From positions 1 to 53,983 of the forward strand of contig CALVKB010000004.1 of assembly GCA_944332485.1 (NCBI GenBank): 53,983 bases of DNA. The letters are read 5' to 3'. The position numbers were made by a program, and so were the translations under genes. Shown here piece after piece: positions 6,663 through 37,200 of this stretch. Positions within the stretch are counted from its first letter, which is position 1, and each line of letters begins with the position of its first letter. Source of the DNA: an uncultured Bacilli bacterium (GTDB taxonomy: Bacteria; Bacillota_I; Bacilli_A; RFN20; CAG-288). Under the pieces are notes generated by a model. It was not told the origin of the DNA and did not search any database. It worked only from the letters and a program-made list of their open reading frames with translations.

Positions 6663-7169
6663 ATGGAAATAAACGAAAAATTTGAAAATTCACAAGAGAA
6701 TATCAACAAGTATATTCTTGGATTTGATCTTCATGAAAGAGAAGATAGTCAAGCTAGTTTCATCAATTTATTCCAAGCGATGATGAAACTTAAATTTGCA
6801 ATGCCTATTAGAGCAATTTCAGTTGATAAAGAAACTGGTGAACGTTTAATAATGCCTCGTATGATAGAAAATGCTAGTTTACCACAGCCTGACAATTTAT
6901 TTATACCATTCTTCATTTCAGAGCAAAACATGGTTGATTGTATGAGAAAAATCGGATTTATCAAAGAAGATGAAAAATGTGATTATATCGTTTATGATTT
7001 TATAGACCTTTTGAAGAAATACGATTTAAGTAAAGATGAAGTTGCTGCTGGACTTGTATTTGAACCTATGCATGAAAGTTTCAAATTCTTCGCTGGGCAT
7101 TTTGCTTATATAAATCATTTAATTAGAAACTTTGAAAGCTTAAAAGGCACAAATGTTGAAAAAAAGTAG
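6663..7169 (+). CDS. SseB-like domain protein
   Basis: A 168-aa soluble protein. The stretch from about residue 60 on (phrases such as NLFIPFFISEQNM, then YDFIDLLKKYD and GLVFEPMHESF) follows the pattern of the SseB N-terminal domain: a strand entering 'FTSEEE', a helix, then a strand leading into 'NP-gesF'. No catalytic motif is visible. It has a good AAGGAAGGTG binding site, and its last 17 bases overlap the start of the first ABC exporter gene, so it is probably co-transcribed with it. The role is unknown; the SseB assignment comes from pattern only. Confidence 0.6.
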   Translation: MEINEKFENSQENINKYILGFDLHEREDSQASFINLFQAMMKLKFAMPIRAISVDKETGERLIMPRMIENASLPQPDNLFIPFFISEQNMVDCMRKIGFIKEDEKCDYIVYDFIDLLKKYDLSKDEVAAGLVFEPMHESFKFFAGHFAYINHLIRNFESLKGTNVEKK

Positions 7170-14686: not shown

Positions 14687-16771
14687 TTATTTCAATAATT
14701 CTATAAGTGATGTTTTATCAATATTGTTGATAGTTAGATCAATGTAGTCTGTTATCAAATCATCAGGATTTGTCTCACTATTTTGTTGTGACATCATCTT
14801 TTTTTGATATTTAACAACATCATCTGTTTTGATGGTTTTTATATTTGCTAATTCTAAAACAGTGTTTAAAGTTAATTTGCTTTGTGCCATTTTTTCCAAC
14901 CCTTTGATAAAAAAGTCGGTATTTATATCGGATTTAGGAACCCTTTCGAAATTAGAAAAAGAAGTATTATCAAAGGTGTATATTAATTTTTTGTCAGGGG
15001 TTAGTTTAGCAATACCAAATATTATTTCTTGTCTATTATCAGTAATCTCAAGATTAAATTTCATCACAATATTATTTGGATTTACTAAACCATTGAAAGT
15101 TTTCAAATTTAATTCATCTTTATTTATTTTATTAAAATTGCACTTTTCAGAAACAGCAAAAAATAAGTTAAATGGAATTTTGAGAACATCGTTTGAAAAC
15201 AAAATATCATTGTACAAATTTAATGCCACTAAAAATGTCTCCTCTTTTTTGCCAGGAGCTAAAGCCATAATTTCAGTTGCACCATTTTTTGCATCTGTCA
15301 TATCGCCACTGAAAGCGACTTTCATATCAGTGTCGTTGATTCTTCTGTAGGAATTTTCTAAATTACACCAGCCGAAATACTGTGAAGCATTGAATAAAGA
15401 AAGGTCTAAATCTACTCTGATTTCTTCAGTTTCTTTTTTACGCTTGATATTGTACCAGCTAACACCTATTTTGAAAGAGTCTGTATTGATGTCAGAGTTG
15501 ACATTTTCAATTTCAAAAGTTGAACCACATGGGATGTTATCTAAAAATTGTTTCTCTGAAGTTGGTAAAGCATATGTCAAATTAGTTGGAATAAAAACTG
15601 TTTTATTTCCAACGTTTTCCTTAACACGTTCAACTATCTCATTTAAAATTTTTTGTTTTATGTTTGTTGCCATATCTTTATTTTTGATTTTGTTGAAATT
15701 CTCGCAGACAAAGCTTTTGTTGTTTCTGATTCTGTAAATTATTGGATCATTCTCATTGTTCAAACGATAATTGAACATGTTGTAAATTTTAATCAATTTA
15801 AAAGTTGTCGCCACTTTAATGTCTGCGTTAATTTTCAACATTGTTTTTTCATCAAAATTTTCTAAAGAGGATAATCTTTCTAATATTGGTGTCTTAAATG
15901 CAGTTTTATTCTTGTCAGCTTTCTTTCTAAGACGATTTATAATTCTGTTTGTTTCTGAGAAAGAATTAGCTTCAGTTTTCAATGCTAAAAATAAAGGTTT
16001 AAATCTTAAAAATATAGAACTAAGTTTATCTTCACCGAATAATCGGATGTAGGTTGAAAGTAAATCTTGAGTTTCATCATAATTGCTTCTTGCTTCTTTT
16101 TTTAAACTTGTGATGGAATCTTTACTTTTTATAAGTAAACTTTTACCTGTCAATCTATAAATTAAGTAGCGTAAAAATTCTTCAGGATTTTCAGGAACCA
16201 ATTTGTATATTATATAAAGACTAGTTTTCACTTCTCTATTTTCGATAGTTTCAATGTAGTTTCTCAAATCAAAAACACAAGCTAAATTTTCGATGTGTGT
16301 AATTGTAGACTGTGAAAGGGCGATGCCGGAATTTAACAATTCCAACATTGCATTGATAATTTGTTTTTGGTCCATTGGTTTTATTATTGTCAAATTTGAA
16401 TTTTCATAATCAAATTTTTGCATTTTACAATTTTCGTTTGGAATAACTGAATTAGCTGTCAAGCCAAAAGCTTCCAACCCATAGGTTGAAAAGTAATGAA
16501 TAAGTTGTTCTTCAACAAGTTGTTCATCAGTTGCATTTAAAATTTTATCCCATGTTTTATGGAAAGTATTACTCAAAAGTGCATTATCAATTCCATACAA
16601 TTTTATGGCGGCTTTAACTACTGATTTTGGTGCATCATTAAAAATAACCACACCTTTTTTTAATGCAGTTTTATCAATTTTATTGTAATCAATTGCATTT
16701 AAGTCTTCACAATAGTAAGCCTTAAAAACCATTAACAAAGCTTGTTTGACAAGATTTCCAATTTTATTCAT
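14687..16771 (-). CDS. Large protein with a TerD-like region
   Basis: A 694-aa cytosolic protein. Residues about 425-535 resemble a TerD (tellurium/stress) domain: a strand with GVSWYNI, then 'VDLDLSLFNAS', an acidic turn with SGDMTDAKNG, and LVALNLYN, which matches the calcium-binding TerD pattern 'DLDasaf ... GDnrtG'. The N-terminal 400 residues are helical and unrecognised. The start follows AAAGGAG. Upstream is a structured leader with an intrinsic terminator, suggesting attenuation. TerD proteins are linked to membrane-associated stress responses; its closeness to an SPFH/zinc-ribbon cluster fits that theme, but the role is unproven. Confidence 0.75.
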   Translation of the reverse strand: MNKIGNLVKQALLMVFKAYYCEDLNAIDYNKIDKTALKKGVVIFNDAPKSVVKAAIKLYGIDNALLSNTFHKTWDKILNATDEQLVEEQLIHYFSTYGLEAFGLTANSVIPNENCKMQKFDYENSNLTIIKPMDQKQIINAMLELLNSGIALSQSTITHIENLACVFDLRNYIETIENREVKTSLYIIYKLVPENPEEFLRYLIYRLTGKSLLIKSKDSITSLKKEARSNYDETQDLLSTYIRLFGEDKLSSIFLRFKPLFLALKTEANSFSETNRIINRLRKKADKNKTAFKTPILERLSSLENFDEKTMLKINADIKVATTFKLIKIYNMFNYRLNNENDPIIYRIRNNKSFVCENFNKIKNKDMATNIKQKILNEIVERVKENVGNKTVFIPTNLTYALPTSEKQFLDNIPCGSTFEIENVNSDINTDSFKIGVSWYNIKRKKETEEIRVDLDLSLFNASQYFGWCNLENSYRRINDTDMKVAFSGDMTDAKNGATEIMALAPGKKEETFLVALNLYNDILFSNDVLKIPFNLFFAVSEKCNFNKINKDELNLKTFNGLVNPNNIVMKFNLEITDNRQEIIFGIAKLTPDKKLIYTFDNTSFSNFERVPKSDINTDFFIKGLEKMAQSKLTLNTVLELANIKTIKTDDVVKYQKKMMSQQNSETNPDDLITDYIDLTINNIDKTSLIELLK

Positions 16772-17241: not shown

Positions 17242-17265
17242 AAAAAAGCTCTATTATCAGAGCTT
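17242..17265 (-). terminator. Intrinsic terminator of the minus-strand accessory operon
   Basis: On the minus strand AAGCTCT, loop GATAAT, AGAGCTT is followed by TTTT. It lies about 240 bases past the last gene of the island operon and would stop its transcription before the TerD-like gene. Confidence 0.65.
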
Positions 17266-17321
17266 GATGTTTTTCAAGTTAAATTTAATTTGCATTAAAT
17301 GCTTTGATATATCATGTATCA

Positions 17322-17391
17322 GTGCTACTAATTGAACACCCATTTGCTTGTTTGCTACTGAGTGAATACATTACCTGCGACTGAGTGAACA
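17322..17391 (-). mobile_element. IS21-like end repeats (remnant)
   Basis: Three related 16-base units lie in direct orientation: TGCTACTAATTGAACA (17322-17337), TGCTACTGAGTGAATA (17353-17368) and TGCGACTGAGTGAACA (17376-17391). Several such repeats at an end are characteristic of the IS21 family, but no istA or istB gene is present here. I read this as a solo end or remnant at the left edge of the accessory island. Alternative: operator repeats. Confidence 0.4.
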
Positions 17392-17460
17392 TACACTTTT
17401 TTACAGGTTTTTTACAAATAGTAGCATTATTATTACAGAAATATACCAATATTTACAGAT

Positions 17461-17489
17461 TTTGTTGAAAAATGACAGATTTCAACAAA
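17461..17489. promoter_or_regulatory. Perfect 10-bp hairpin after the 80-aa repeat-protein gene
   Basis: TTTGTTGAAA (17461-17470) and TTTCAACAAA (17480-17489) form a perfect stem with a nine-base loop. There is no T-run, so it is not a classical terminator. It may be an mRNA 3' protecting stem or part of the neighbouring mobile-element end. Confidence 0.4.
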
Positions 17490-17505
17490 GATGGTGTTTT
17501 TTTAA

Positions 17506-17748
17506 TTAGTCTAAATAAGCTTCAAAATCACCAAATGAGCTGACTTTTTGAAGTTTAACATCTGGGAAAGAAGTAACAATTTGAATCTTAATTGTTTCTT
17601 TAGAAAAAGATCTACTGTTGACGATTTTTACTTTGTAATCTCCAAATGAGTCAACGAATTGAACTTTTAAATCAGGGAAAGAAGTAACAACTTTAAACGT
17701 GACTTTTTTCCCTTTGAACTGAGATAAATAACCTTTACTGTAACCCAT
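17506..17748 (-). CDS. Repeat protein resembling the 7(1) septoil-knot family
   Basis: An 80-aa protein made almost entirely of short beta-type repeats of about 11 residues: VTSFPDLKVQ (21-30), VDSFGDYKVK (32-41), VNSRSF (43-48), VTSFPDVKLQ (58-67), VSSFGDFEAY (69-78). At a larger scale residues 20-41 repeat at 57-78. This rhythm of 'V-x-S-x-x-D-x-K-V' matches what I recall of the small DUF6150 / 7(1) septoil-knot domains, whose chain is deeply knotted. A strong AAAGGAG site precedes the ATG. It is the last gene of the accessory operon. The assignment is from pattern memory only. Confidence 0.55.
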   Translation of the reverse strand: MGYSKGYLSQFKGKKVTFKVVTSFPDLKVQFVDSFGDYKVKIVNSRSFSKETIKIQIVTSFPDVKLQKVSSFGDFEAYLD

Positions 17749-17809
17749 AAATTTCTCCTTTTTAATAAATATATAAAATTAAGTGCACTATTTTATGTAC
17801 ATTAGTGTT

Positions 17810-18337
17810 TTATTTAAAAATCTCATCACCTTTTGTTTGAATTATGTATATCGCTTTCTCAATAAAATAGCTTACTTGTTTTTTAATTTCATCATAGTTT
17901 TGAATATCGACTTTAGGCTCAACTTTTTCGTTCCATGTATCAAAATATTGATAAACCCAGTTTCCTGAATAAGAACATGGATTTTTACTCATTGTGGTAG
18001 GATGTCCAAAGATCTCTCTTTTACTTTTTTTATCAAACGTTTTATCAAACCACTTTTCTTCAAGACCTATTTTAAAGATGTTTTCAACAGGTCCTTTGGT
18101 TAAGCCAAGGAAAAGTCTAAATTGATTGTCTTCGATTTGGACACCGATTTGTCCTTTATAATTGTCTCCACTTCCTTTTTGTAATTCAAAAGAGATTGTT
18201 GATTTGCCGTTGTGGAATGACCTAGAAATATAAAAGGTCCATCCAGGAAGGTCTTTGATCTCGTGTTCCGCTAATAATCTTAATTCTTCACATGTTTGAA
18301 CAAAATCATCAGCTTTGTTTTTTCTAAAAACATCCAT
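17810..18337 (-). CDS. Unknown protein next to PD-(D/E)XK nuclease
   Basis: A 175-aa soluble protein without a recognised motif. The central part (about 33-80) looks like a beta-sheet (GWTFYISRSF, ISFELQKG, GQIGVQIEDNQFRLFLGL), and the rest contains Trp/Tyr-rich segments and a C-terminal helix. It follows the nuclease gene by 10 bases. Longer single-chain nucleases of the same family often have a sheet-rich C-terminal half, so this could be the detached second half or a dedicated partner. Confidence 0.65.
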   Translation of the reverse strand: MDVFRKNKADDFVQTCEELRLLAEHEIKDLPGWTFYISRSFHNGKSTISFELQKGSGDNYKGQIGVQIEDNQFRLFLGLTKGPVENIFKIGLEEKWFDKTFDKKSKREIFGHPTTMSKNPCSYSGNWVYQYFDTWNEKVEPKVDIQNYDEIKKQVSYFIEKAIYIIQTKGDEIFK

Positions 18338-18347
18338 TAACCTGACT

Positions 18348-18908
18348 TTACATAATCCTTATTATATTTTCTGACCAATAAGAAAGGCGACCAGCCGTCT
18401 CTTTTAGAGAAAGGTCCATTAAAATATTGATTGAATCCAAAACTTCGCAGTAATCATGAACAATTGATTTCAAATATTCATTATGAATATCAAGCGTTCT
18501 CAAAAAAGAGGAAATTTCATGATAAGAAATAAAAGACCATTTATCCGGTAATTCAAATGGCGGTTCTTTAATACCCGTAATTACACCTTTTTCTAAATTG
18601 GTTTTTTTACTGTATCTTTCTAGCTGTGAGCGATTAGGGTAAGACTTAATTTTATTCTCAATTACATATTCCTTGCCTTTTGAATATATAACAAGGTCTC
18701 TATTTTTATCTTCTCTCTCAATCTCAGCTTCAGAGTAAACATCGATTTCTTTAAAGAAAAAGGAGATAAGTCCTTTGCATTCTTCCTGTTTCATTAAGTA
18801 AGCCCAAAAATTTGAATGAAACAGCTCTTTTGAACCTAAAGACATAGAAAACACAGGCGATTTTCTAAGCTTCTCAATATTTTCTATAAATAATTGATTA
18901 TTTTCCAT
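18348..18908 (-). CDS. PD-(D/E)XK nuclease-like protein
   Basis: A 186-aa protein with the restriction-endonuclease-like core. Numbered from its ATG, it shows an N-terminal 'ELFHSNFWAYL' helix (about 28-38), Asp71 in NRDLVI, then Glu84-Asn-Lys86 in VIENKI and Gln95 in SQLERY, matching the PDDEXK_4 (PF14281) pattern. The catalytic residues look intact, so DNA or RNA cleavage is plausible. The ATG at 18908 overlaps the WYL gene by 11 bases; an in-frame TTG at 18917 is closer to AAAGGA and could be used instead. Confidence 0.8.
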   Translation of the reverse strand: MENNQLFIENIEKLRKSPVFSMSLGSKELFHSNFWAYLMKQEECKGLISFFFKEIDVYSEAEIEREDKNRDLVIYSKGKEYVIENKIKSYPNRSQLERYSKKTNLEKGVITGIKEPPFELPDKWSFISYHEISSFLRTLDIHNEYLKSIVHDYCEVLDSINILMDLSLKETAGRLSYWSENIIRIM

Positions 18909-19896
18909 ACTTAGCAATTATCCTTTCTGCTTCTGTTTTTGCTCTTTCAATCAGAGATTGAGGTGATAAAATGGTTACGCACTCGCTGTACTGCATATAC
19001 CAGTAGAACAAAGCACTTTCATTACACTTAATATCAGCATACAACTTACCATCCTTGCTATATGTTCTGGCATTTTTACCAAACCAATCAATAACGAATT
19101 GAACGTAACTTGATTGTTCCAACAAGAATGTAGCTTTAATTACTTTTCCATCTAATAGATAGATATTGTCATTTAAATATTTAGCGATATCAAAATCTTT
19201 TACACCTTCTAATGACTCAATTGGCTTAAGCGGCCATTCATCTTCAATTTTTGGATTAAGCATGTAGTCAATTCTGAACCACGTGATTGCACGATATTTT
19301 TCGCGATAATTGCAAATCAAGAAATAACGCCCATTACTATTAGCTGAATAATACGGAGAAACAATGTAACGATAACCGTCCATTTTGGTGTAAGGTTTTC
19401 CGTTTTCATCAAACGTTAAATATTGGAATGAGAGTCTTTTTCCTCTACGTTTGGCTTCTTCAATCAGTTCTAATGTATAGAATAATTCCTTGTTCTCTGA
19501 ACGATTGATTTCGTTACCTTTATAAATAAAGTTGTAGTCTTCTCTTTGATATCTGCTCAGACACGAGTTGAGTTTTTTAGAGAGTTCGGCTGCTTGCTTA
19601 CCACTAATTGACTTACTAGAAAACAAAGAATCAACAATATATCGAATCTCGCTATTATTAAAACTACGTGATAATAATGCATAGCCACCTCTAGGGGACT
19701 TGTTGATATCGTAGTCCAGTTCCTGTAATAGCGATATAGAAAAAGCTACCGATTTGCGTTCTAATTCGATTCCATACAATTCATCAACTTTATTAATGAT
19801 GTCTTGCTGTGTTAGAAAATGATCCTCATCAGAGTATTCTTCCAACACTTTTAAAATCAATAAAATTGAAGCTTTCTTATTTTCAATCATCAACAT
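18898..19896 (-). CDS. WYL-domain transcriptional regulator
   Basis: A 332-aa protein with an N-terminal winged-helix region (about 1-75) and a central WYL domain (about 130-230, including RYIVSPYY, RYFLICNYREKYRAITWFRIDYML), followed by the C-terminal WCX-type region. WYL proteins bind nucleic acid or nucleotide-like ligands and often control defence islands. ATG 19896 has AAGG ten bases upstream; an in-frame GTG at 19926 is less likely. Its place inside the operon makes it the best candidate for the local regulator. Confidence 0.88.
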   Translation of the reverse strand: MLMIENKKASILLILKVLEEYSDEDHFLTQQDIINKVDELYGIELERKSVAFSISLLQELDYDINKSPRGGYALLSRSFNNSEIRYIVDSLFSSKSISGKQAAELSKKLNSCLSRYQREDYNFIYKGNEINRSENKELFYTLELIEEAKRRGKRLSFQYLTFDENGKPYTKMDGYRYIVSPYYSANSNGRYFLICNYREKYRAITWFRIDYMLNPKIEDEWPLKPIESLEGVKDFDIAKYLNDNIYLLDGKVIKATFLLEQSSYVQFVIDWFGKNARTYSKDGKLYADIKCNESALFYWYMQYSECVTILSPQSLIERAKTEAERIIAKYGK

Positions 19897-19929
19897 AATT
19901 ATAGACCTTAATGCTCGGCATTGCACTGA

Positions 19930-20334
19930 CTACTTATTAACATGGTTCAGCAACAAGCATTTTCCTTTTACTTCTAGCAATTCTATTGATCCATCACTAT
20001 ATTCCACTTCTGTGCAATAATCCTCGTGATCAATCCCCGTTAATTCCTTAATAATTGGAACAGGATCAACATCTTCGCCTTCAAAAAGTGCAATAAATGT
20101 TTCTGGATTATAGTACTCACCATCAACTCTACAGTCATTTAAATCAATATCAACTTGTACTAAATGTTTCTTTTCGTTTTTTTCATACTCTCCTTCAAAT
20201 AAAGAAGAAACGCTACAGTTAGAAAGCCTCGCACAGTGAGCAGCGATCTTAATAAAAGGAATATCAGCATAATCGTTTAATGAATAAGTGGCAAAATCCA
20301 CATATAACCAATTGACATCTCTTGCGGTTCTCAT
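19930..20334 (-). CDS. Unknown 134-aa acidic protein
   Basis: An acidic soluble protein with no recognised family. It has alternating strand-like segments (KKHLVQVDIDLNDC, CTEVEYSDGSIELLEVKG) and a stretch FIALFEGEDVDPVPIIKEL. A clear AAGGAG binding site precedes the ATG, 10 bases after the AAA-protease gene, so it is translated as part of the operon. It may be an adaptor or substrate of the protease; this is only positional inference. Confidence 0.65.
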   Translation of the reverse strand: MRTARDVNWLYVDFATYSLNDYADIPFIKIAAHCARLSNCSVSSLFEGEYEKNEKKHLVQVDIDLNDCRVDGEYYNPETFIALFEGEDVDPVPIIKELTGIDHEDYCTEVEYSDGSIELLEVKGKCLLLNHVNK

Positions 20335-20344
20335 ATTTTTCTCC

Positions 20345-21646
20345 TTAAGCTAATCCTATAATGTTCAGAACCTCAAACGATTTGAGATTTTTCTTTTTAA
20401 ACAATTTGTCGGCCAATTTGATGAGCAACTTTTTGTTTTTCTTGAGATAGTGTTTTGTTTCTTTTTCGCATCTTTTCAGGAGCTTTTCTATTTCGATTTC
20501 ATTATGACGTCTTCTTTCTTCTGTTTCGTTTCTAATATATGGTTTGACTTCTGGAAGAGTATTAGCGCAAGATAAGAAGCCAACTCTGTTTATGGCTCTT
20601 GCTGCGATTTTATATGCTCTTTGCATATCTGAATCACACCCATCGGATCCTTTTTTAAAAATCAACTTTTCAGCAATTAAGCCTGCACAACTAATTTTTA
20701 TATCGGCGATTAATTTATCATGTGGATTGAACTCTCTATTGTTTTCAACAACAGACAAATATCCACCGTTATTGTTGATTGTTAATCTTCCAATCTTAAA
20801 GAATTCTGAGCAAGCTTTTGTCATTAAGGCGTGGCCAGCTTCATGAACTGCGTGCTGATAGATATCACTGTTACTACTATTTTTTACCTGATTAGTTAAA
20901 TTAAAAATTGAGTCATAGATCATTTCTGAAGTTATATTTTCAAAACCATTTGTAAGAAAAACTTCATTAACAATTGATTTAATCGTTGCACAAGGCACAT
21001 CATCTAAAGCTAATTCAAACTCTTCATTAACAAAATCAGATGGAAGAGTAACTCCAAGATCTTTAAAAAGCTTTTTAAGCAATAAAACTGCTTCTTTTCC
21101 TGTAGGAGATGGAATTCTTAAAACTTTTTCAAGGCGTCCACTTCTCATTAAAGGCTCAGGAATTTCATAAATATGATTGGTAGCACATAAAACCAAAATG
21201 TCAGATTCAGAACTAACACCATCGAGGTTATCTTGTAGGACTCTTTCAGCTCTACTGTCCTTGCCAATAAGAAGATCTAATTCATCAATCACAATAACAA
21301 CATGTCCTGTTTCTTTAGCTTTTTTGAACATTTCTTCTAATCCTTCAGAAACATTGTCCATGTCACCTCTAAAGACAAATGTCGGTGCCTCAGCATATTT
21401 AATTGTTTCTTTTATTAATAAAGACTTGCCATTGCCTGGATCACCATACATAAGAATGCCTCGAGGAATATCAACTCCTCTTTTTTTGTATTCCTTTGAT
21501 TCTTTAAACCATTTCAAAACCGAGATTAAGACTTCTTTTTGCTTTTGATGGCCAATTACCTTTCCTAAGGGTTCTTCAGAATCATTAACCTTTTGAGCAG
21601 GAATCAAATCATATGGTAATGTCTTTTTAATATCAATTTCTTCCAT
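20345..21646 (-). CDS. Soluble AAA+ ATPase with M41-type zinc protease domain
   Basis: A 433-aa protein combining an AAA+ module and an FtsH-like (M41) peptidase. Walker A is GDPGNGKS (68-75), Walker B VIVIDELD (118-125), and arginine-finger candidates are in MRSGR (167-171). The protease shows HEAGH (268-272) with zinc ligands H268 and H272, catalytic E269, and a likely third ligand near D340 in DSDMQRA. FtsH proper has two N-terminal membrane helices and about 600 residues or more; both helices are missing here, so this should be cytosolic. It sits in a tight operon with WYL and nuclease genes. Confidence 0.88.
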   Translation of the reverse strand: MEEIDIKKTLPYDLIPAQKVNDSEEPLGKVIGHQKQKEVLISVLKWFKESKEYKKRGVDIPRGILMYGDPGNGKSLLIKETIKYAEAPTFVFRGDMDNVSEGLEEMFKKAKETGHVVIVIDELDLLIGKDSRAERVLQDNLDGVSSESDILVLCATNHIYEIPEPLMRSGRLEKVLRIPSPTGKEAVLLLKKLFKDLGVTLPSDFVNEEFELALDDVPCATIKSIVNEVFLTNGFENITSEMIYDSIFNLTNQVKNSSNSDIYQHAVHEAGHALMTKACSEFFKIGRLTINNNGGYLSVVENNREFNPHDKLIADIKISCAGLIAEKLIFKKGSDGCDSDMQRAYKIAARAINRVGFLSCANTLPEVKPYIRNETEERRRHNEIEIEKLLKRCEKETKHYLKKNKKLLIKLADKLFKKKNLKSFEVLNIIGLA

Positions 21647-21654
21647 AAAACTAA

Positions 21655-22299
21655 TTACTCCTCTTCTTCGTTGGTAACCTTTTTATTTGGTTTCTTTTTA
21701 TTAATTCCTTTGTCGTATTGTTTGCAATCTTGGATGATTTTATCCTTTTCTTGAGGAGAATAATCCATAAACATGAATGTTTCTGGGTTAGTACTTTCTA
21801 AGTAATTGAATGTCCTTGCAAAAAGTATTGAAATCATTCTTCGTACATTAGGTGATTTATTGTTTGAGGTTCCTTCCACTATTGATTTGAGAAAAACATG
21901 ATCTTCATCTTCTTTTTCGTGGAACTCAAAATAGCCATTCTCCCTATCATAAGCTCTGTTTAAACCATGTTTTCTGGTATTAAGACAAAATCTTTTTCCC
22001 TCAAATTCTTTATAGATGCCATTGTAATAAGACAATAAGTTGTTGTAATTATCATTTACATGAAACTCATTTTTATCTGGACTAATAAAGACATCAATTG
22101 TTCCTATTTGGTTGTGAAGACCATACATTAAATGTGTTGCATCATTGAATTCACGAATTAATTTGTTTTGGAACAACTCTTCGTATTTACTCTGTATAAC
22201 TTCTGGATCTTCCGAATAATTATTCTTTTTTTCAACATTCCATATACCATTTCTTACATTAGCAATCCATGTCATTATTGTTTCAAATTTGAATTTCAT
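21655..22299 (-). CDS. Unknown 214-aa protein, first gene of the protease-nuclease operon
   Basis: A soluble, charged protein with no recognised family. The C-terminus is rich in Lys and Glu (KKKPNKKVTNEEEE). There are mixed alpha/beta segments, for example GTIDVFISPDKNEFHVND at 66-83. GAGGTAAG precedes the ATG, and the stop lies 8 bases before the AAA-protease gene. It is divergent from the small plus-strand gene at 22388. It may be a partner of the protease. Confidence 0.65.
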   Translation of the reverse strand: MKFKFETIMTWIANVRNGIWNVEKKNNYSEDPEVIQSKYEELFQNKLIREFNDATHLMYGLHNQIGTIDVFISPDKNEFHVNDNYNNLLSYYNGIYKEFEGKRFCLNTRKHGLNRAYDRENGYFEFHEKEDEDHVFLKSIVEGTSNNKSPNVRRMISILFARTFNYLESTNPETFMFMDYSPQEKDKIIQDCKQYDKGINKKKPNKKVTNEEEE

Positions 22300-22366
22300 T
22301 TTTCTTACCTCGCACCATTATGATACAAAGACCAATGTCCGTTTTTCCGTGCATAGCAAAAAGTAC

Positions 22367-22372
22367 TATAAT
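22367..22372 (+). promoter_or_regulatory. TATAAT box in the divergent region
   Basis: The sequence AGTACTATAATT contains TATAAT on the plus strand and TATAGTAC on the minus strand. The same minus-strand word TTATAGTAC occurs at the start of the distal island operon (near 27536-27544). It may be a -10 element for the 214-aa operon (minus), but it is too near the plus-strand gene's ribosome binding site to serve that gene with a normal leader. Confidence 0.3.
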
Positions 22373-22387
22373 TGCGAGGAAACAAAG

Positions 22388-22625
22388 ATGAAAAACATTA
22401 AAAACTATGTTATATCAGCCAATATTGATGAAAAAATGAATAAAATTGTTTTAGAAATTAAAAAAAATACGTACAGGTATGTACGAAATTAAGGATTGGG
22501 ATTCATGTGTCGAAACTGCTTTTTTGATTCTAGATAAGATTCTAGAAAACGGCTTAACACCATTAATGTTGGATACATTTATCGAATCATTTTCAAGAAA
22601 CGAAAAAACTAGTTTTGATGCCTAA
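22388..22625 (+). pseudogene. Small gene split by a frameshift at an A8 run
   Basis: A 34-aa frame begins at ATG 22388 (AGGA eight bases upstream) and ends at 22492. A second frame, 22479-22625 (48 aa, beginning MYEIKDWDSC), continues it in the +1 frame. Removing one A from the run at 22460-22467 would give one protein of about 78 residues: MKNIKNYVISANIDEK ... KKIRTGMYEIKDWD ... FSRNEKTSFDA. The compact acidic/hydrophobic pattern suggests a real small protein. The family is unknown. It overlaps the convergent sigma-like gene by 17 bases. Confidence 0.5.
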
Positions 22626-23001
22626 AAATATATGATTTGTATTTTTCTTTTATTGTTGAGTATGCTTTTTTGACCGCAGTAGCGGATTTATTAGTTGCTC
22701 TCCCTATTCCTCTAAGAGAAATGTAAGGATTTTTCAGTCTAAACGACAAATAGAACAACTGCTTTTCTGATAGTGTTTTTAAAAAAGCCTCTGCACTCCT
22801 ATCTTCTTCTTGCCAATTTAGAGCATCGTCCACTTTTTCTGAAGAAGCAAGTATGAGCCCTTCAAAATTAAAAGCATCCATTGAAAGACAGTGATATCGA
22901 TTTCTTCTTAACATAGTCAATTCTTGCTTAACGTCATTCGACAAACATAAGAAACCATTCGGCTTTCGTATCTTCAGGATAGTATCTGGTTCTTTTTCCA
23001 T
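22609..23001 (-). CDS. Sigma-70 region-4-like regulator (C-terminal part of a split gene)
   Basis: A 130-aa reading frame. Residues about 75-122 (LSEKQLFYLSFRL ... ISLRGIGRATNKSATAVKKAY) form a sigma-70 region-4 type helix-turn-helix, typical of small regulators in mobile elements. The ATG at 23001 has no proper ribosome binding site, and the frame overlaps by 68 bases the 49-aa frame that has one (22934-23083). The two probably form one frameshifted protein. It could also be an independent gene with coupled translation. Confidence 0.65.
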   Translation of the reverse strand: MEKEPDTILKIRKPNGFLCLSNDVKQELTMLRRNRYHCLSMDAFNFEGLILASSEKVDDALNWQEEDRSAEAFLKTLSEKQLFYLSFRLKNPYISLRGIGRATNKSATAVKKAYSTIKEKYKSYIFRHQN

Positions 23002-23083
23002 TCTCTAAACGCCATTCAATTCCAATAGGTTCTTTTGTTGTTTTGTTTCTTAGTATTTTTACCCCAGCATAATAATCAATCAT
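22934..23083 (-). pseudogene. N-terminal part of the split sigma-like gene (49 aa)
   Basis: This 49-aa frame starts MIDYYAGVKILRNKTTKE and has an excellent AAAGGAGG seven bases upstream. It ends in a frame one base off from the sigma-like frame. Joining near codons for YYPEDTK / KPNGFLCLSNDVKQEL would give a coherent protein of about 170 aa. One extra base in this copy (or a programmed shift) would explain it. Confidence 0.5.
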
Positions 23084-23158
23084 TTCACATCCTCCTTTAA
23101 TTGAATATTACAATGAAAAAGCCCACTACTCAGTTTTTCAACTTTTCATGGGCAATAA

Positions 23159-24604
23159 TTATGCTTTGCTTTCTTCTTTGGTTAAGCGTTCCATTATTTT
23201 CTGGAAAGCTCCTTCGTAGATTCTCTTAATGCCGTTATATTCAACAGTAAGTTGTTCAAGAGTCATGCTGGTGTAGTCTTTTTTCAAATGAGCAGAGCTT
23301 TCCTTAATAAAGTCGTTTAATTGTTTATAGACTAAATCCTTTGTTTTGAGGCTCTTCATCTTTTCTCTTACACCAGAATTCATGATTTCACCAACCATCA
23401 TATTCATCTGATTGATCATGTTCTCACGCTCAGTAATGTAAGTTCTGACTTTAATTGCATCAGCTTCCGACAAAGCGTTCTTGTCAACTTGTAGAAGTTC
23501 GTCAATCGAATAGTTAAGACTATTGTCTATCTTATAAAGATAGTTGATATGGATTGGAGTTGCAAACTTCTTCATTGAAAGCAGCGCTTCCTTAGACCAG
23601 CCTTTCTCAAAGCCGTTCTTAATTAACGAAAGCCCAACTTCAGCAAGTTCCTTAGAATCTTTTCTGTTGAGAACATATTCCACTACTTTTTTAGCGGTCT
23701 CATCTGATACAGCTAATAAGATTCTCACCAAAGATCTTGTTTTGTATTCATTAATCCAGCCTTTAGATAGCAATTGTTCGATAGCTTCTTCGCATCTGGC
23801 TGAGTTAGATTTAACAAAGTCATATTTGCTTTCTTTGAAGAAATAGATTCCAAACACATTAATAACGCTTGTGACTTTAATATATTCATTAAAAATCGAA
23901 CCTAAGTTGTTATCTTTATCTTTGAAGATGAATCTCTCTTTTAGCATTGCATTAAGAACGGTTTGAGATAAAGCATTCCATTGGCCACCAGTTATTTCGC
24001 TAGTAATTTCGCAAGGATAAGCTGAAATATTCATGCTTTGGCCTTTGTAGACTTTATCAAACTCTTCTTTGTCGATTGGAAGGAACTTATTGTCATCTAA
24101 ATTAACAACTATTCTTTCTTCAGAGAAGATAGCATCATATACATCTCTCTTGGTTGTACCTGGTTCGCTTTCAAAGCTGATGTCCAAGAAGGTGGAATTC
24201 TCATCTTTTGGCATCATGAATTGCTTAAGCAATTCTTGATTATCAAAGAGGTTTCCTTCAAAGACCTTGTTTCTAAATCTAGAAGCATTAAACATCTCGT
24301 AATACTTGAAGTGATCAGAAACCATCATAGTTACTGGATATAAGGAATTTTCGATAATTCCATCAATTTGACTTTCTGTGAATTCAGAAATTTCCTTATA
24401 TAGTCTCTTGAAGTGTGAATTAAGAGAACCTTGGCCACAGATTTCTTCAATATAATCGAATGCTTCTTTTTTGGTTTTAGCATTCTTGATTAATGAAGCC
24501 ACTAAATATGAATCGTATGTCGCTTTTTGATAAGTATCATAACGAAGCATTACTTTGTAAAAGGTATTAGGCAAGCTTAGAGCCACTCTTGCTTTGATTT
24601 CCAT
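23159..24604 (-). CDS. Unknown 481-aa protein paired with the SF1 helicase
   Basis: A largely helical soluble protein with no motif I recognise. The C-terminal 90 residues (from ERENMINQMN onward) look like a coiled coil. It starts with AAGGAG before the ATG and overlaps the end of the helicase gene by 38 bases, so the two are translationally coupled and probably work together. No signal peptide or membrane segment. Codon use is like its neighbours. Confidence 0.8.
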   Translation of the reverse strand: MEIKARVALSLPNTFYKVMLRYDTYQKATYDSYLVASLIKNAKTKKEAFDYIEEICGQGSLNSHFKRLYKEISEFTESQIDGIIENSLYPVTMMVSDHFKYYEMFNASRFRNKVFEGNLFDNQELLKQFMMPKDENSTFLDISFESEPGTTKRDVYDAIFSEERIVVNLDDNKFLPIDKEEFDKVYKGQSMNISAYPCEITSEITGGQWNALSQTVLNAMLKERFIFKDKDNNLGSIFNEYIKVTSVINVFGIYFFKESKYDFVKSNSARCEEAIEQLLSKGWINEYKTRSLVRILLAVSDETAKKVVEYVLNRKDSKELAEVGLSLIKNGFEKGWSKEALLSMKKFATPIHINYLYKIDNSLNYSIDELLQVDKNALSEADAIKVRTYITERENMINQMNMMVGEIMNSGVREKMKSLKTKDLVYKQLNDFIKESSAHLKKDYTSMTLEQLTVEYNGIKRIYEGAFQKIMERLTKEESKA

Positions 24605-27071
24605 AATCGATTTCTCCTTCTTTATATCTAATCATCTTTCCTGCTGAGGAAATGTATTCAATGATGTCTTTGAAATAGTGCCTATCCATTCCACCACTGA
24701 TTTTCATGTTGATTTTGCTTAAAGTGATCTTATTTCCGAAAACAATGAGTTTGTCTCTTGAACGAGACATGGAAACATTGATTCTTCTAAAATCGTTTAA
24801 GAAGTTTCTTTGAGTTGCATCAGTAACAACTGTATTGACAAGAACAACATCACATTCTTTCCCCTGAAAAGCATCCACGGTATCAATATCAAATGATTTG
24901 AATAACTTTTTAGCTTCATTGATTAGAGCTATGTTGTTCTTTTGGAAGTGATTAATTTGAGCAGCATATGGGAAGATAGCAGCAACAGACATCTTCTCTG
25001 GATTAATCGCTGTTTTCATTAAATCTTTCAATATAGCAACAGTTGCGTTGATTTCTTGGACATTGAATCTAGAAGTTCCGTCTTTTGTTTCTTGACCACC
25101 TAACACTTCAACAAAAACTGCATCTTTGTCTTCAAATGCTGGGTTAGTGAAATGAACTTTTTCAGGCCTAACTTCTTCTCTTCTTCCAATAAGCTCACCG
25201 TTATAGAACATGTTATAACATGTAAGGACTTGCTTAACTGATCGATAATTCTCATTTAAGAGCACTAATCTATTACTTTCTTTAGCTTTGGATAAAACCT
25301 TGGCGAAGACTGATTGTTCATACATGGCTTGCATTTTTTCAAACATATCTTCGTCATAGCTTGGGAGCTCTTTGACATCATCTTTTGTAAATTCAAGGAG
25401 AGGAGCTAATTGGAAGTCATCACCAACCATGATGATTCTGCTTACATATGGAAGATATCTGAGAACTTCTGTAATTGGGCATTTACTGACTTCATCAATA
25501 ATAAGCCAGTCATAGCCCTTAAGAGTTTCAAGGCCTTTCTTACCAGCGATAGCACTTGTTGTGGTTGTAGCTCCGATAACTGAGAATTCGCTATCAACTT
25601 CCTCAGAATATCTGAATCTAAACTCACCATTAAAGTTAGCCATAGAAAGAGCCATCTTCTCTTTTAACTTTTTATTGGTCGATCTTTCATTATGAGCAAG
25701 GAACTTTCTGCCCCATGTTTTATATAAGGTTTCATCGATGTATTCTTTTGAATACTTGTTACGTCTATTGGTAATTCTATTAGGAATAATAAGGTCATTA
25801 TTCTCCATCAACTTATCCAAAACATTGTCAATAGCGATGTGGGTTTGAGAAGAGATAATAACTTTTTCGCCTAATTCCTTTGTAATGTATTGAGTAATCG
25901 CATTAATGACATGCGTTTTACCTGTTCCTGGTGGCCCTTTAATAAGACTGACAGGAGAGCCATCTATTGCCATCAAGAAGGCTTTTCTCTGTGATTCATT
26001 TAAGCCTTCCATGTACTTCTCTTTAGTCCTTGAAGTTCTAGAGACATGGTTAGGCATTTTTGTGTCGCCAATTAAGTATTCCAATAACTCTGAAGCTGCA
26101 CCTGTGGCACCTTGATTGATTAATCTTAAAGAGTTATCGATGGACTCAATTTTGATTTTTTGGCCCATATCATAAAGGTTTAGATATGAATAGTCTTCTT
26201 CGTAATCAGCAGAGGACTTCATTTCTCCAGAAAGGATAACTTCGTCTTTGACGATTCTGATGTTAACTAATAAGAATTGTTTAAGGTTTTTAGCGGCAGC
26301 TTCAGTAACAAAGTTATAGTTACTTAAGTAAATGTTGTCATCACCACATCTTTTAATTCTTGCGAGAACTTCCATACCACCTTCAATGTGTACGTCTATG
26401 AGTTCTCTGACCTTATCTTTAATGTCGTTGCTTAAGGTGTCGTATTGAGTAACGTCAAATTTGTAGCCTTTAATGACTCCGTTTTGGTCCTTTACTTCTT
26501 GCTTGAAGTCAGAATCAAACTCTTTAACATCAGCAGGAACAAAGAAGTAAGACTCCGTTTTACTGACTACAGGATATGTAATATTGTTGTTGAGTTCGTC
26601 AGATAACTTCTTATAGAAGTTGAATATTTCCATGAACTCATCAAATTGACCGATATTATATTCAAATTCGTTTGAGTTAGCTAAGATATTTAATGCTTCT
26701 CTAGTTTGGTCTATTTTCATTGGAGGATAACCAGCATAAACGAATTTAGTTCTAGTTAATACACCTTTAAGTGTTTTGAAATCTGTTTCTTCTTCAAACA
26801 CCTTTTTAACGAAGAACATTCCGCCAAACGGAGGTCTGAAATCGCATTGAAGGTTTCCAACAAATCCAACTATTCCGCCACCTTTTCTTTCGTAACATAA
26901 TTTCACGTTGTCGATAGATTTTATGAATCTAGCATCTTTCGCATCGAATTTGATGGTCTTTTTGTTGGTGTTGATTTTGACATCATGATAAGTGTCATCT
27001 CTTAATTGTCTAATCCACTCTTGATCGAAATCCGGGAATGAATCTAATTTAAGTTCAAGTGCTAATGCCAT
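24567..27071 (-). CDS. UPF1-like superfamily 1 helicase
   Basis: An 834-aa SF1 helicase/ATPase. The N-terminal 350 residues are unassigned. Walker A (motif I) GPPGTGKTH is at about 379-387, the DEVS form of motif II (LIIDEVSK) at about 523, GDDFQLAP is motif III, ENYRS is motif IV, and motifs V (VDAFQGKECDVV) and VI (RRINVSMSRSRDKL) lie near 730-790. This AAA_11/AAA_12 arrangement is that of UPF1/DNA2-type helicases, which recur in defence systems. AGGAGGAGG precedes the ATG. It is followed, with overlap, by the 481-aa gene. Confidence 0.92.
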   Translation of the reverse strand: MALALELKLDSFPDFDQEWIRQLRDDTYHDVKINTNKKTIKFDAKDARFIKSIDNVKLCYERKGGGIVGFVGNLQCDFRPPFGGMFFVKKVFEEETDFKTLKGVLTRTKFVYAGYPPMKIDQTREALNILANSNEFEYNIGQFDEFMEIFNFYKKLSDELNNNITYPVVSKTESYFFVPADVKEFDSDFKQEVKDQNGVIKGYKFDVTQYDTLSNDIKDKVRELIDVHIEGGMEVLARIKRCGDDNIYLSNYNFVTEAAAKNLKQFLLVNIRIVKDEVILSGEMKSSADYEEDYSYLNLYDMGQKIKIESIDNSLRLINQGATGAASELLEYLIGDTKMPNHVSRTSRTKEKYMEGLNESQRKAFLMAIDGSPVSLIKGPPGTGKTHVINAITQYITKELGEKVIISSQTHIAIDNVLDKLMENNDLIIPNRITNRRNKYSKEYIDETLYKTWGRKFLAHNERSTNKKLKEKMALSMANFNGEFRFRYSEEVDSEFSVIGATTTTSAIAGKKGLETLKGYDWLIIDEVSKCPITEVLRYLPYVSRIIMVGDDFQLAPLLEFTKDDVKELPSYDEDMFEKMQAMYEQSVFAKVLSKAKESNRLVLLNENYRSVKQVLTCYNMFYNGELIGRREEVRPEKVHFTNPAFEDKDAVFVEVLGGQETKDGTSRFNVQEINATVAILKDLMKTAINPEKMSVAAIFPYAAQINHFQKNNIALINEAKKLFKSFDIDTVDAFQGKECDVVLVNTVVTDATQRNFLNDFRRINVSMSRSRDKLIVFGNKITLSKINMKISGGMDRHYFKDIIEYISSAGKMIRYKEGEIDYGNQSKSGSKLA

Positions 27072-27085
27072 GTTTCTACCTCCTC

Positions 27086-27504
27086 CTAGTAAGCTAATGC
27101 AGCTTCGTAATTTCTCATTGAATATAAAGCTTCTGTATAGATAATTTTGTTCTTTTTCATTTTGTATTTAACTGTGTAATCTCTGTCTTTTTTACTAACT
27201 TTGCGAGGTTCTTCATAGCAGACAATCGATTCATCTATGTATATACATAGTTTTTCTTGCTCCTGCTTAGAACCAACCTTGAAGTAAGGATCATTCTTAT
27301 TGATTTCCTTCAGTTCAAGATGCTCTTCCTCAGAGATATTTCTAACATCAATATTTGCATCCTTCCTATGATGTTTGACTCGTGGCATCCATCTAACCTT
27401 TTCAGTGTTTCTCTTCCGTTCTCTGCATAAACTGGGATGGTCTTAGGAATGTATTTTCCGCTACCAACGTGTCCAAATTGAGCTGTAACTGCATAATGTT
27501 CCAT
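27086..27504 (-). pseudogene. Small conserved-looking gene broken by a frameshift
   Basis: The first frame (27504-27310) starts MEHYAVTAQFGHVGSGKYI with AAAGGAG upstream. The second (27388-27086, 100 aa) starts MPRVKHHRKDANIDVR without a ribosome binding site. The DNA between reads AENGR-E in one frame and TEKVRWMPRVKHH in the other. One extra base, for example one more A in GAAACAC near 27401, would join them into a protein of about 140 aa. The parts together resemble a small family seen in Firmicutes (YAVTAK-GHVG ... PRVKH--KDA). It is the first gene of the helicase operon. Confidence 0.6.
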
Positions 27505-27534
27505 GTACGTGAATCTCCTTTAACGAAAGCAGAA

Positions 27535-27609
27535 GACGTACTATAACCAAAATATAAAATTTTAAATCAGTTAATCTTACAGTCAGAAATAGTACGTCCC
27601 GACGTACTA
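27535..27609. promoter_or_regulatory. Operator-like repeats TAGTACGTC / GACGTACTA
   Basis: GACGTACTA occurs at 27535-27543. A perfect inverted pair, TAGTACGTC (27590-27598), two-base spacer, GACGTACTA (27601-27609), lies 47 bases further out. On the minus strand the first copy overlaps TATAGT, a likely -10 for the operon starting at 27504. The layout suggests binding sites of a local repressor, perhaps the WYL or sigma-like protein. Confidence 0.5.
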
Positions 27610-27698
27610 CAGGTAATTATCAATCCTACTCAGATCTTTTCAGACCTTTTTGGTTGGAACCATAACGTGGTTTCCTTCGTTCGCAATTTCATTAAATC
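27610..27698. other. Palindrome-rich leader or spacer
   Basis: This part of the gene-free region holds a small hairpin (GGAACCA near 27656 with TGGTTTCC near 27669) and the left copy of an inverted repeat, TCCTTCGTTCGCAA (27673-27686), whose mate is at 27787-27800. No gene is visible. Confidence 0.4.
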
Positions 27699-27830
27699 AA
27701 AAAAAAAAGTAACTGTCAAACGTTTTTGTGAAGCGAGTTCAGTTACATGAAGTAATTTTTTTGAGGTGGGGCACATACCTGTAGTGTTGCGAACGAAGGA
27801 TCTGCACCCCGAAGTATTCACGTTCGCAGT
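27699..27830 (-). ncRNA. Candidate small RNA with intrinsic terminator
   Basis: On the minus strand TTATCA, 16 bases, TATAAT (about 27860-27833) resembles a promoter. About 125 bases later GTAACTG ... CAGTTAC forms a stem followed by ten T (about 27751-27699), a classical terminator. Between them TGCGAAC and GTTCGCA pair as a 5' hairpin. No protein with a ribosome binding site fits. The region may instead be the attenuated leader of the helicase operon. Confidence 0.45.
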
Positions 27831-27879
27831 TATTATTATAAATAATTTATTGCGCCTGATAAAGAAAAAATCTCTGTTT

Positions 27880-27929
27880 GTTATTTACCATATTCAATGC
27901 TTAGTTTTGCATTAAATATGGTAAATAAC
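27880..27929. repeat. Long hairpin containing the dispersed 32-bp repeat
   Basis: A 21-bp stem with one mismatch: the left arm 27880-27900, an eight-base loop TTAGTTTT, and the right arm 27909-27929. The loop plus right arm repeats at 44-75 with one mismatch. It lies just before the IS3 transposase fragment at the right edge of the island. Confidence 0.6.
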
Positions 27930-27939
27930 TTGAAACAAT

Positions 27940-28161
27940 ATGGTTAAAAAAAGATCTATGTCTAAAAAGGGATGTTCCCCAGACAATTCAATTTGTGAAG
28001 GATTCTTTGGAACAATTAAAAATGAGTTCATTTATCCAAATAATTGGAAATATACAACATGCGATGATTTTATTACTGAATTAGAAAAATATCTAAATTG
28101 GTTTAAAAATAAACGAATTAAGAAAAGATTAGGATATTTATCGCCAACACAATTTATGTAA
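27940..28161 (+). pseudogene. IS3-family transposase OrfB, C-terminal fragment
   Basis: A 73-aa remnant of the DDE integrase domain. It keeps SMSKKGCSPDNSICEGFFGTIKNE, with the third catalytic residue (the Glu after DNS), and the typical ending YLNWFKNKRIKKRLGYLSPTQF. The first two catalytic Asp residues and OrfA are missing, so it is inactive. The sequence ATTAGTCCAAAAAAATATCC just after it (about 28175-28194) may be the element's right end. Confidence 0.85.
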
Positions 28162-34208: not shown

Positions 34209-37200
34209 ATGATTTGTTTTAAGATTTCAAATAATTATACAAGTGAAAAAAGCGTCTTAAATAATGCTATAAAAGCTTTTGATACATTTGATTTTAAATC
34301 TTGTATTAATTTGCTAAAAAACGAAAATGATACAGTTTCAAATGAATTAAGAGTGCTCTCTGATTTTTATATTCAAAATAAATACGTTTCTAATTTGATT
34401 GAACAAATGAGAGAGTTAGCAAGTAAGAAAGAACATGTTTTTGCTAAAGTTTTTCTTTGTGAGATGCTTTTACAAAAATCAAAAAGTTACAAGGAAATAT
34501 ACAACGCTTTTCAAGATATTAATTTAAATTTTGACAAGGACAATTTGATTGATATAAAGTTTTTAATTTACTGTAAATTGACATCTACAATTGTCGGTGC
34601 AGATATAAAAAGAGCGTTAGAATTGATTGACAAATTTCATTTAGAAAATGATTTTGAAGTTAATAGATGGTTGATTGACGCCTATGGCGAATGCAGAGAC
34701 GAAAATTATGATCCGTACTATTTATTAAGAGCATTGATGAATAATGCAGTTAAAAAAGATGCGGATGCTTTGAAAAAACTAGGCATTACATCAAATATAA
34801 AATTCAAAACTAAAAAAGAATTAGCTTCTTATTTGATGGGAAATCTTGACAAGAATCCAGAAACATATTCATACAAATATATCTTAAAAAACAACCCAAA
34901 TTTATATTTGGATAATGGTGAAACAAACACAAATGTTACTAAACCTGTAAATATACCATCGAAAGCATTTATTTATTGTCTGGTTCCATATTACTTTCAA
35001 TTGAAGAAAAAGAATTTAAGTGGTGAACAATTAATCTCCAGAATCAATAAAGATGTTTTTGATAAAGATGTCATCTATGATATCAACTTGGTTGATAAAT
35101 ATTTCTTTTATCTTCTAACGTATGAATATTTTGAACTCTCAAAGTTCAAAGAAGGTTTTAAGTTTGCAACAAATTTGAAAAATGACCCTCGATTAGGCTC
35201 TCTTTTTGGTCGTTACATACTTAAAGATAGATTCAGAAATCAATTGTCCAAGTCAATTTTCAGATATGATTTATCGAATATTAGAAAAGCATCTTATCTT
35301 GATTATGATAACTTGGAACACTGCGAAATAACTGAAAAACAGATATTATTATTGAGAGAAGATAAATATAATATCAAGCGAAATATGCCGGTCCGTTTAC
35401 CTTCTATCTTTGAGTTATTAAATAAATATATGACAAATAGTGAAGTTGAAAAATCTATCATGGAATTATTGATAGCTAAGGATTTTGTCGCTGTTGTCAG
35501 AACACTTGATGAGGTTATAAAAACAGAAAAAGAACCTTCCTTATGGATACTTATTCGTGCTATTTTATTGTCAAACAGAAGATTAAAAAGAAAGTTTAAA
35601 GTCAAGATCAAGGACTTGATAACTACGATTGAAGAACGTGTTGATGCCGATAAATACATTGAAGCTTACTATATTAAAGCTTATCTTTGGAGCTTGAGTA
35701 GAAAACATGATTCAAATTACAAAACAATAACCAATTTATACACAGGTTATGTTTTGAATGAGAAGAATGCTAAGGCTCAACTTTTTGCAATATTGTTTTT
35801 CAATTATGAAGTTGTTAATCCATATTATGCTGAAGATTTAGTTCTTTCAAATGACTTTTACAAATTTTATAACATGGATGATAGAATTTTCTACTTTTAT
35901 TTCTCATCTTATATCCGTTTTAAAATTGAATCTTTCTATCAATTAGTTTTCGACTATGCTAGTAATCAAGAAGCTTTGGGTGATTTTGAAAATAGATGTT
36001 TGTTGATGAACATTTATTTGCTCAAAGGAAGTAAGCATTACAACATTTACAAAGCTATTGAATTGTACGAAAAAGATGTGGAAATAAGCAAACACCCTGA
36101 GTTCCCATATGTTGATATTTTGTACGCTTATGAGGATATCTACTATTCTATGTCTTTTGATGATATGACTGAAGAGTTATTGTTGCAACTTGAGAACAAT
36201 CTTAAAATGCGCGGTGAACTTCTGTTTGAACATCTAAAGGAACCTCAACTTAGTAGTATCAGAAGAAATTACACATATAATATGCTGAATGTTCTCTCTT
36301 TGAAAAACGATTTGACTGAACAATCTTGGTTCAACGCACTTGAACCTTTGATCAACAATCTTATTTTTACACCATCCATAGAGGATATATCTTTCTCAAA
36401 CTATCTTTTGAATAGCGGTCTGTTTCCGATTATAGAGAAGATGGCTTACGAGTCAGATTTTTTTCATGAACAAGCTTTGATTAGCTTTTTTGAAACAAAC
36501 ACTGAATTCAACGATGTGGATGAACAAGTTTTGGTCGACGTTATAGAGTTCTTCTTATCTGATTATTGTTATACACCAGTTCTTTTGGACGAGTTAGTTA
36601 ATTTTATAGATAGTAATGCTGAGCGTTTTCAATTCTGCTTAGTTAAAGCCTTCTTGAAATCTTATTATTCATATCAAAAGAATCAAAGTAATCATTCCGA
36701 GTTTTACGCTTTGATAATTTCTTTTTTTACCATGTATTTTGGTCAAAGAATTTCAAAGTATTTCAAACCTATCGAATACATTATGATGACAAGGTTGTTC
36801 TTTTCATTAGGTAAACAATATGAAGAAGCGCTAAGAAGACTTGATGATGGCTTGTATTTATTTAGAAATTCCTGTTTTTATCAAGATTTACAAGTTTATC
36901 GTGAAGTAGTTTTTTTTATATCGTTGTTTGATTTTGACTCACCTTATTATATTGGAACTAAGAAGATGAATGACTATAAAGAAAAAACCTTGATTTGCAT
37001 CACCAATATTCAATATGCCTTGGACAATTATACAAAGCAAAATAACTACAACTTTGATATATTCGCTTTACAAGTTGTTTTCCAATGCCTCGGTTGGACT
37101 AATAAAAGACTTTCCTTCATCGAGATTGAAAAATTGATGAAATTGAATGATAAGTTCGCAAATAAACAGAATGTTTTTTCAATTTTCTTGGGTGGATGTA

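Follow-up and report, generated by a model that had tools for sequence, protein, structure and literature searches.

Gene content of the locus

We analysed a stretch of 53,983 nucleotides, hereafter the window, from an uncultured Bacilli bacterium (GTDB lineage Bacillota_I; Bacilli_A; RFN20; CAG-288). The window is the entire contig CALVKB010000004.1 (C4), part of the 1.13-Mb assembly GCA_944332485.1. As listed in Table 1, it carries a minus-strand operon, here called module A, which codes for a WYL-domain regulator, a soluble AAA+/M41 protease, a PD-(D/E)XK nuclease and the proteins p214, p134 and p80, and, upstream of it, a second minus-strand gene pair, module B, made up of a UPF1-like superfamily 1 (SF1) helicase and a partner protein of 481 amino acids (aa).

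Table 1. Coordinates of the genes and features in and around modules A and B of the window (ORF, open reading frame; HTH, helix-turn-helix).
Feature	Position	Strand	Basis
Module A operon: p214, soluble AAA+/M41 protease, p134, WYL regulator, PD-(D/E)XK nuclease, p80	17506-22354	minus	
p80, small beta-repeat-like protein, last gene of module A	17506-17748	minus	profile search of 279 genomes
PD-(D/E)XK nuclease gene, frameshift near 18340	17810-18917	minus	fragments 18348-18917 and 17810-18337
WYL-domain transcriptional regulator, 330 aa, probable start	18898-19890	minus	PF13280 over cut-off; start is Met13 of the longest ORF
p134, accessory protein	19930-20334	minus	homologues at the equivalent place in L067 (73%) and L068 (42%)
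Soluble AAA+/M41 metalloprotease without FtsH pore-1 loop	20345-21646	minus	PF00004, PF01434
p214, accessory protein, first gene of module A	21655-22299	minus	72% homologue at the equivalent place in L067
Candidate WYL operator ATGCACGGAAAAACGGACAT	22335-22354	minus	36 bp upstream of the p214 start codon
Divergent small gene, frameshifted, approximate limits	22388-22604	plus	DNA likeness to the L120 region
130-aa HTH/sigma-like protein, in neither module	22609-23001	minus	HTH_WhiA E 0.007, below cut-off
481-aa helicase partner, module B	23159-24604	minus	pair kept in the window, L041, L046 and L168
UPF1-like SF1 helicase with its own N-terminal part, module B	24567-27071	minus	AAA_11/AAA_12; UPF1 in PDB; 52-62% relatives
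p100 and p64, a single frameshifted gene	27086-27504		131-148-aa family without Pfam match
Integrase fragment, mobile-element remnant	27940-28161		rve_2 E 6e-12

Conservation and spread of module A

The operon recurs in locus L067 of genome G234, which belongs to another family, with the genes in the same order and with identities of 72% for p214, 69% for the protease, 73% for p134, 88% for the WYL regulator and 58% and 55% for the two nuclease halves, followed by p80; the two operons share 72% DNA identity over 4.86 kb. Locus L068 of G248 retains the protease, p134 and the WYL gene together with a different PDDEXK_4 protein. The order p214, protease, p134, WYL, nuclease, for which an earlier note on the window sequence had proposed a survey of many genomes, is therefore kept fully in G234 and partly in G248. 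No family match was found for p134, nor for p214 in Pfam, PADLOC and other profile searches.

Order-wide searches covered 279 genomes. Fourteen of 37 short AAA/M41 genes lie within 5 kb of one of 56 WYL342-type matches (largest gap 2.4 kb), where 0.06 would be expected, and 12 of these 14 pairs are on the same strand. The counts were drawn from direct search hits and not from single-linkage clusters, since the clustering had drawn some remote WYL-like proteins and a single RarA-like ATPase into the WYL and AAA clusters. Gene linkage within each of the two modules is far beyond chance. The protease-WYL pair also occurs in G553, a genome from a different family of the class, and in a metagenome-assembled genome (MAG) of Clostridia (L157), where the AAA match is weak.

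WYL proteins are 76-88% identical where RecA is 60-66% identical (RecA of G000 against G234, G086, G238 and G248), a disparity which shows that the WYL gene of module A has spread horizontally. Its named relatives are mostly MAGs from rumen and gut that carry the label Bacilli or Erysipelotrichaceae. On plasmids and phages, the 433-aa protease had only distant FtsH-like matches (about 25-28%). WYL genes 85-90% identical are present without the protease in G086, G238 and G235, with another small gene before them and, where the contig continues, other proteins after them. Such genes would be expected if the WYL protein were a generic regulator of defence loci, carried along with many genes, and if protease and nuclease were functionally unrelated passengers under the same operator. 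We consider this unlikely, however, given that protease and WYL gene are linked in 14 independent-looking places, 12 of them on the same strand, and that p80 was found only in AAA/M41 operons.

A soluble AAA+/M41 protease without the pore-1 loop

Both domains of the protease are recognised by Pfam (AAA, 6e-20; Peptidase_M41, 2e-17), and the earlier description of it as soluble is borne out: the 433-aa protein begins about 30 residues before the AAA domain, has no hydrophobic stretch and no membrane segment, and is collinear with the cytosolic parts of solved FtsH structures. In an alignment with eight FtsH proteins from the same order, the family retains Walker A and Walker B, the arginine of the second region of homology (SRH), HExxH and the third zinc ligand (Asp). 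Nearly all its members, however, have lost the pore-1 F-V-G loop through a deletion of 5-6 residues, and some distant relatives show different short inserts at this position. Because the loop is deleted, the protease probably does not thread its substrates.

Close relatives of the protease that lack the WYL operon (L070 7934-9222, L072 7769-9405, L073 6114-9292 and L071 8502-8954) adjoin a HAD_SAK_2 protein of the RNA-repair type, and an ADP-ribosylglycohydrolase is encoded in three of these four loci, which possibly represent a second type of operon built around this protease family. Zinc-protease-like proteins with HExxH-type motifs, recognised by eye, are encoded at L117 12307-12756 and L070 11155-12108, beside a nuclease or an AAA/M41 gene.

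The WYL regulator and its candidate operator

The WYL domain, correctly named in the earlier note, scores just above the PF13280 cut-off and matches the PADLOC WYL profile with E 3e-20; the HTH part was recognised by homology and sequence only. Since homologues with 88-52% identity start at the position of 19890 and not at the GTG at 19926, translation probably begins at 19890.

The region upstream of p214 has a short element in common with the upstream regions of related operons, and the aligned element is a 20-bp palindrome, ATGTNCNNAAAANNGNACAT. Its core has 25 sites in 1.08 Mb of loci against 0.4 expected, mostly within about 230 bp upstream of a WYL gene, an AAA gene or the gene that opens the operon. 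The shuffled controls for the upstream motif, the loci and the operator-linkage test were made by permuting bases in 300-bp blocks, which keeps base composition but not dinucleotide composition; the reversed pattern, WYL-negative genomes and dinucleotide shuffles of the window served as independent controls. Among 30 whole genomes, the 16 WYL-positive ones had 22 sites, of which 15 lay at WYL/AAA loci, compared with five sites in the 14 WYL-negative genomes and eight sites of the reversed pattern across all 30. The copy in the window differs from ATGTNCNNAAAANNGNACAT by one mismatch and is the sole site there, with 0.09 expected from the dinucleotide shuffles. Under a loose definition of WYL genes, the operator-linkage association was modest (12/25 versus 3/20, p = 0.02). 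We infer that the palindrome is a candidate operator to which the WYL protein would bind. For the upstream region, the RNA structure z-score was -1.05 and Rfam gave no match besides a tRNA. A terminator-like hairpin at 22470-22485, considered as the module boundary, was dropped as it lies inside the broken divergent gene.

Exchange of the nuclease and association of p80 with the protease

The N-terminal fragment of the nuclease contains a PDDEXK_4 core (E 5e-7, over the cut-off) and also matches PDC-S26 in PADLOC. The earlier note had rightly named a PD-(D/E)XK nuclease and had listed beside it a separate 175-aa protein; since the 189-aa and 175-aa ORFs align one after the other with the intact 364-aa homologue of L067 (residues 1-191 and 191-356; 58% and 55%), both belong to one gene, intact in G234 and split by a frameshift in the window. 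The WYL gene is followed in relatives by PDDEXK_4 proteins (L067, L068, L117), GmrSD (L082, L086), a 447-455-aa family with an ENK motif assigned as nuclease by eye (L033, L035, L121, L123), a 264-aa protein without assigned family (L083, L120, L134) or a PDC-S41 protein (L135). These comparisons show that the nuclease is exchanged among related operons.

The order-wide profile search with p80 gave seven strong matches, all seven in AAA/M41 operons; six have a WYL gene on the same contig and the seventh is on a short contig that ends before it. Since p80 adjoins PD-(D/E)XK nucleases, GmrSD or the 264-aa protein, it belongs with the protease/WYL part and not with one nuclease type, and judged by its gene neighbourhoods it is a dedicated component of module A-type operons.

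Proposed function of module A

We read module A as a mobile, WYL-controlled and nuclease-bearing conflict operon, probably directed against phages, with the soluble, pore-loop-less AAA+/M41 protease as its hallmark, and give this reading even chances of being correct. The link to defence, which the earlier note had drawn from gene content and neighbours, is supported indirectly by the swapped nucleases including GmrSD, the WYL regulator, the horizontal spread and, for module B, one helicase pair beside AbiE. In the mechanism that we propose, a WYL dimer would bind the palindrome and keep the operon low until a ligand made in infection or DNA damage is bound by the WYL domain and relieves repression. 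The protease, having no threading loop, might then act on a loosely folded partner dedicated to it, be it p80, p134 or a nuclease inhibitor, and this proteolysis would free or stabilise the nuclease, so that phage or host DNA is destroyed. A wider proposal, which we put forward tentatively and hold to be possible rather than probable, is that of a new anti-phage class in uncultured gut Bacilli, in which the WYL protein, via one 20-bp palindrome, commands a soluble, non-threading metalloprotease that licenses interchangeable nucleases, p80 being substrate, adaptor or sensor.

Several points weigh against an anti-phage operon of this kind. The role is deduced from sequence. Moreover, 23 of the 37 AAA/M41 relatives have no WYL342-type gene nearby, some of them adjoining ADP-ribosylglycohydrolase and HAD genes instead, and the palindrome is missing in the searched span at 17 of 38 strong WYL genes, the motif not being universal. 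Finally, the nuclease gene is frameshifted, and if this is no artefact of the assembly, the operon may be dead in the window genome.

Module A could instead be a cellular operon for the response to stress or DNA damage, joining protein quality control to DNA repair. FtsH-type proteases perform quality control, which counts for this possibility. So does the WYL protein DriD, which acts in a DNA damage response (PMC12340889). Such a cellular role fits poorly with the patchy presence of the operon and its transfer between families, with the swapping of nucleases, among them GmrSD from a restriction enzyme family, and with the decay of the copy in the window genome, and we regard it as decidedly unlikely.

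The same decayed copy, together with mobility, a self-controlled promoter and a nuclease with co-encoded small proteins, would suit an addiction-type, toxin-antitoxin-like element, in which the nuclease is a toxin controlled by the protease and small proteins and any effect on phages is secondary. A set of four to six genes with a full-length WYL regulator exceeds typical addiction modules, though, and p80 is not tied to one nuclease type; we judge this explanation improbable.

If module A is indeed an anti-phage conflict operon, DNA-cutting defences may be gated by regulated proteolysis in the Bacilli of rumen and gut, a group with few well-characterised systems. The proposal yields testable predictions on the operator, the protease substrate and the modular nuclease, and the pore-loop-less M41 family raises the question of how an AAA ring works without threading.

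Comparison of module A with known systems

PADLOC (2023 copy) assigned neither module to a named system, giving component matches only (PDC-S26, generic WYL, weak IetA and part of the helicase to MkoA), in line with the earlier statement that no named system has this exact set. A full-text search, whose coverage excluded most subscription papers, found none linking an M41 peptidase with phage defence, and in the literature searched the trio of WYL control, swappable nucleases and an M41 protease without a substrate-pulling loop is not reported together. Since literature coverage was partial and the PADLOC copy dates from 2023, the novelty of module A, which we take as a variant of WYL-controlled nuclease loci, is provisional.

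BrxR-type WYL regulators resemble the regulator of module A in their HTH, WYL and C-terminal domains, in adjoining nucleases or type IV restriction genes and possibly in a palindromic upstream site, which is conserved at many but not all WYL loci here, and 48% of them co-localise with defence systems (PMC9122601). In contrast to these, the WYL protein of the window has no PDB relative by sequence and is coupled to an M41 protease, a kind of enzyme of which the BrxR paper (PMC9122601) makes no mention. FtsH and i-AAA proteases share the AAA and M41 architecture and the Walker, SRH and zinc motifs, whereas the module A protease lacks the membrane anchor and the pore-1 F-V-G loop and is encoded in mobile operons, while the same genome also has a normal FtsH gene. 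IetAS likewise combines an AAA ATPase with a protease in a candidate defence locus, and the AAA domain matches IetA weakly (E 3e-12); the IetS protease is subtilisin-like, however, and Pfam and PADLOC found no subtilase among the operon proteins, the module A protease being a fused M41 metalloprotease to which WYL and nuclease genes are added. PDC-S26 and GmrSD/HEC-06 nucleases, which occupy the nuclease slot in module A and its relatives, are single-gene candidates in PADLOC, whereas here they lie within a WYL/protease operon.

Module B, a helicase and its partner

The UPF1-like SF1 helicase was confirmed (AAA_12, E 1e-32; UPF1 best in PDB), as was its coupling to the 481-aa protein. The two genes overlap by 38 bp in the window and form an overlapping pair in all four genomes with the helicase (the window genome, G078, G263 and G529), with identities to the window of 52-62% for the helicase and 28-34% for the partner. 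In the order-wide search, 3 of the 279 genomes had the helicase. Genes for AbiEii and AbiEi come after the pair in G263. No relatives of the pair were confirmed in IMG/VR, and on plasmids the helicase had one weak match.

The earlier note had placed both gene groups in a single island, and the fact that all genes lie on the same strand within 10 kb could be taken to mean that helicase, partner, protease, WYL regulator and nuclease form one large multi-gene defence system. This is very improbable and largely refuted by gene content: in G078, G263 and G529, the helicase pair occurs with no WYL/AAA genes nearby, G234 and G248 have the operon without the pair, the order-wide searches put the modules in different genomes, and in the window they are separated by the palindrome and the broken divergent gene. 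Module B is a separate helicase-plus-partner system, conserved on its own, that happens to lie next to module A.

The helicase core is like that of Mokosh (MkoA, E 3e-76), although the match covers only helicase residues 277-809 and profile positions 543-1099 of 1112, leaving the N-terminal part unmatched. For the 481-aa partner, neither Pfam, PADLOC nor fold comparison gave a match to a phospholipase D (PLD) nuclease, and its model (pLDDT 87) had no match in PDB or BFVD at E<=0.001. Membership in Mokosh was rejected on account of the partner without PLD match and its confident model without PDB match, and module B appears to be an unnamed helicase pair outside Mokosh.

Other genes of the window

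For the 130-aa protein between the modules, the proposed sigma-like regulator, only a weak HTH match below the cut-off was obtained, and no homologue was present among the fetched loci. The divergent small gene has 70% DNA identity over 274 bp to a region of L120 with a small intact ORF upstream of a WYL operon. The proteins p100 and p64, formerly counted as separate, are one frameshifted gene. It lies just upstream of the helicase and belongs to a family of 131-148 aa without Pfam match, also encoded at L046 7002-7448 and L040 3044-3439, near the helicase pair in L046 and on a different contig in G078.

Concerning the two mobile-element remnants said to flank the region, the right one stands as an integrase fragment, while the left one does not: the 694-aa neighbour (14687-16771, minus strand) had no transposase match, no family match in Pfam, PADLOC or PHROGs and no relative among the fetched loci; a GlutR_dimer match was ignored as it was below the cut-off. 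A sequence like an 11-base tRNA 3' end was searched for in the window and had no match. A 1113-aa protein encoded at 34209-37550 (plus strand) had no Pfam match at E<=1e-4. The left flank carries housekeeping genes (aminotransferase, SufBD, MnmG and ABC transporters), and inside one of these ABC transporter genes (7153-8970) ARAGORN placed a tRNA-Ile at 8328-8414 (plus strand), probably a false positive.

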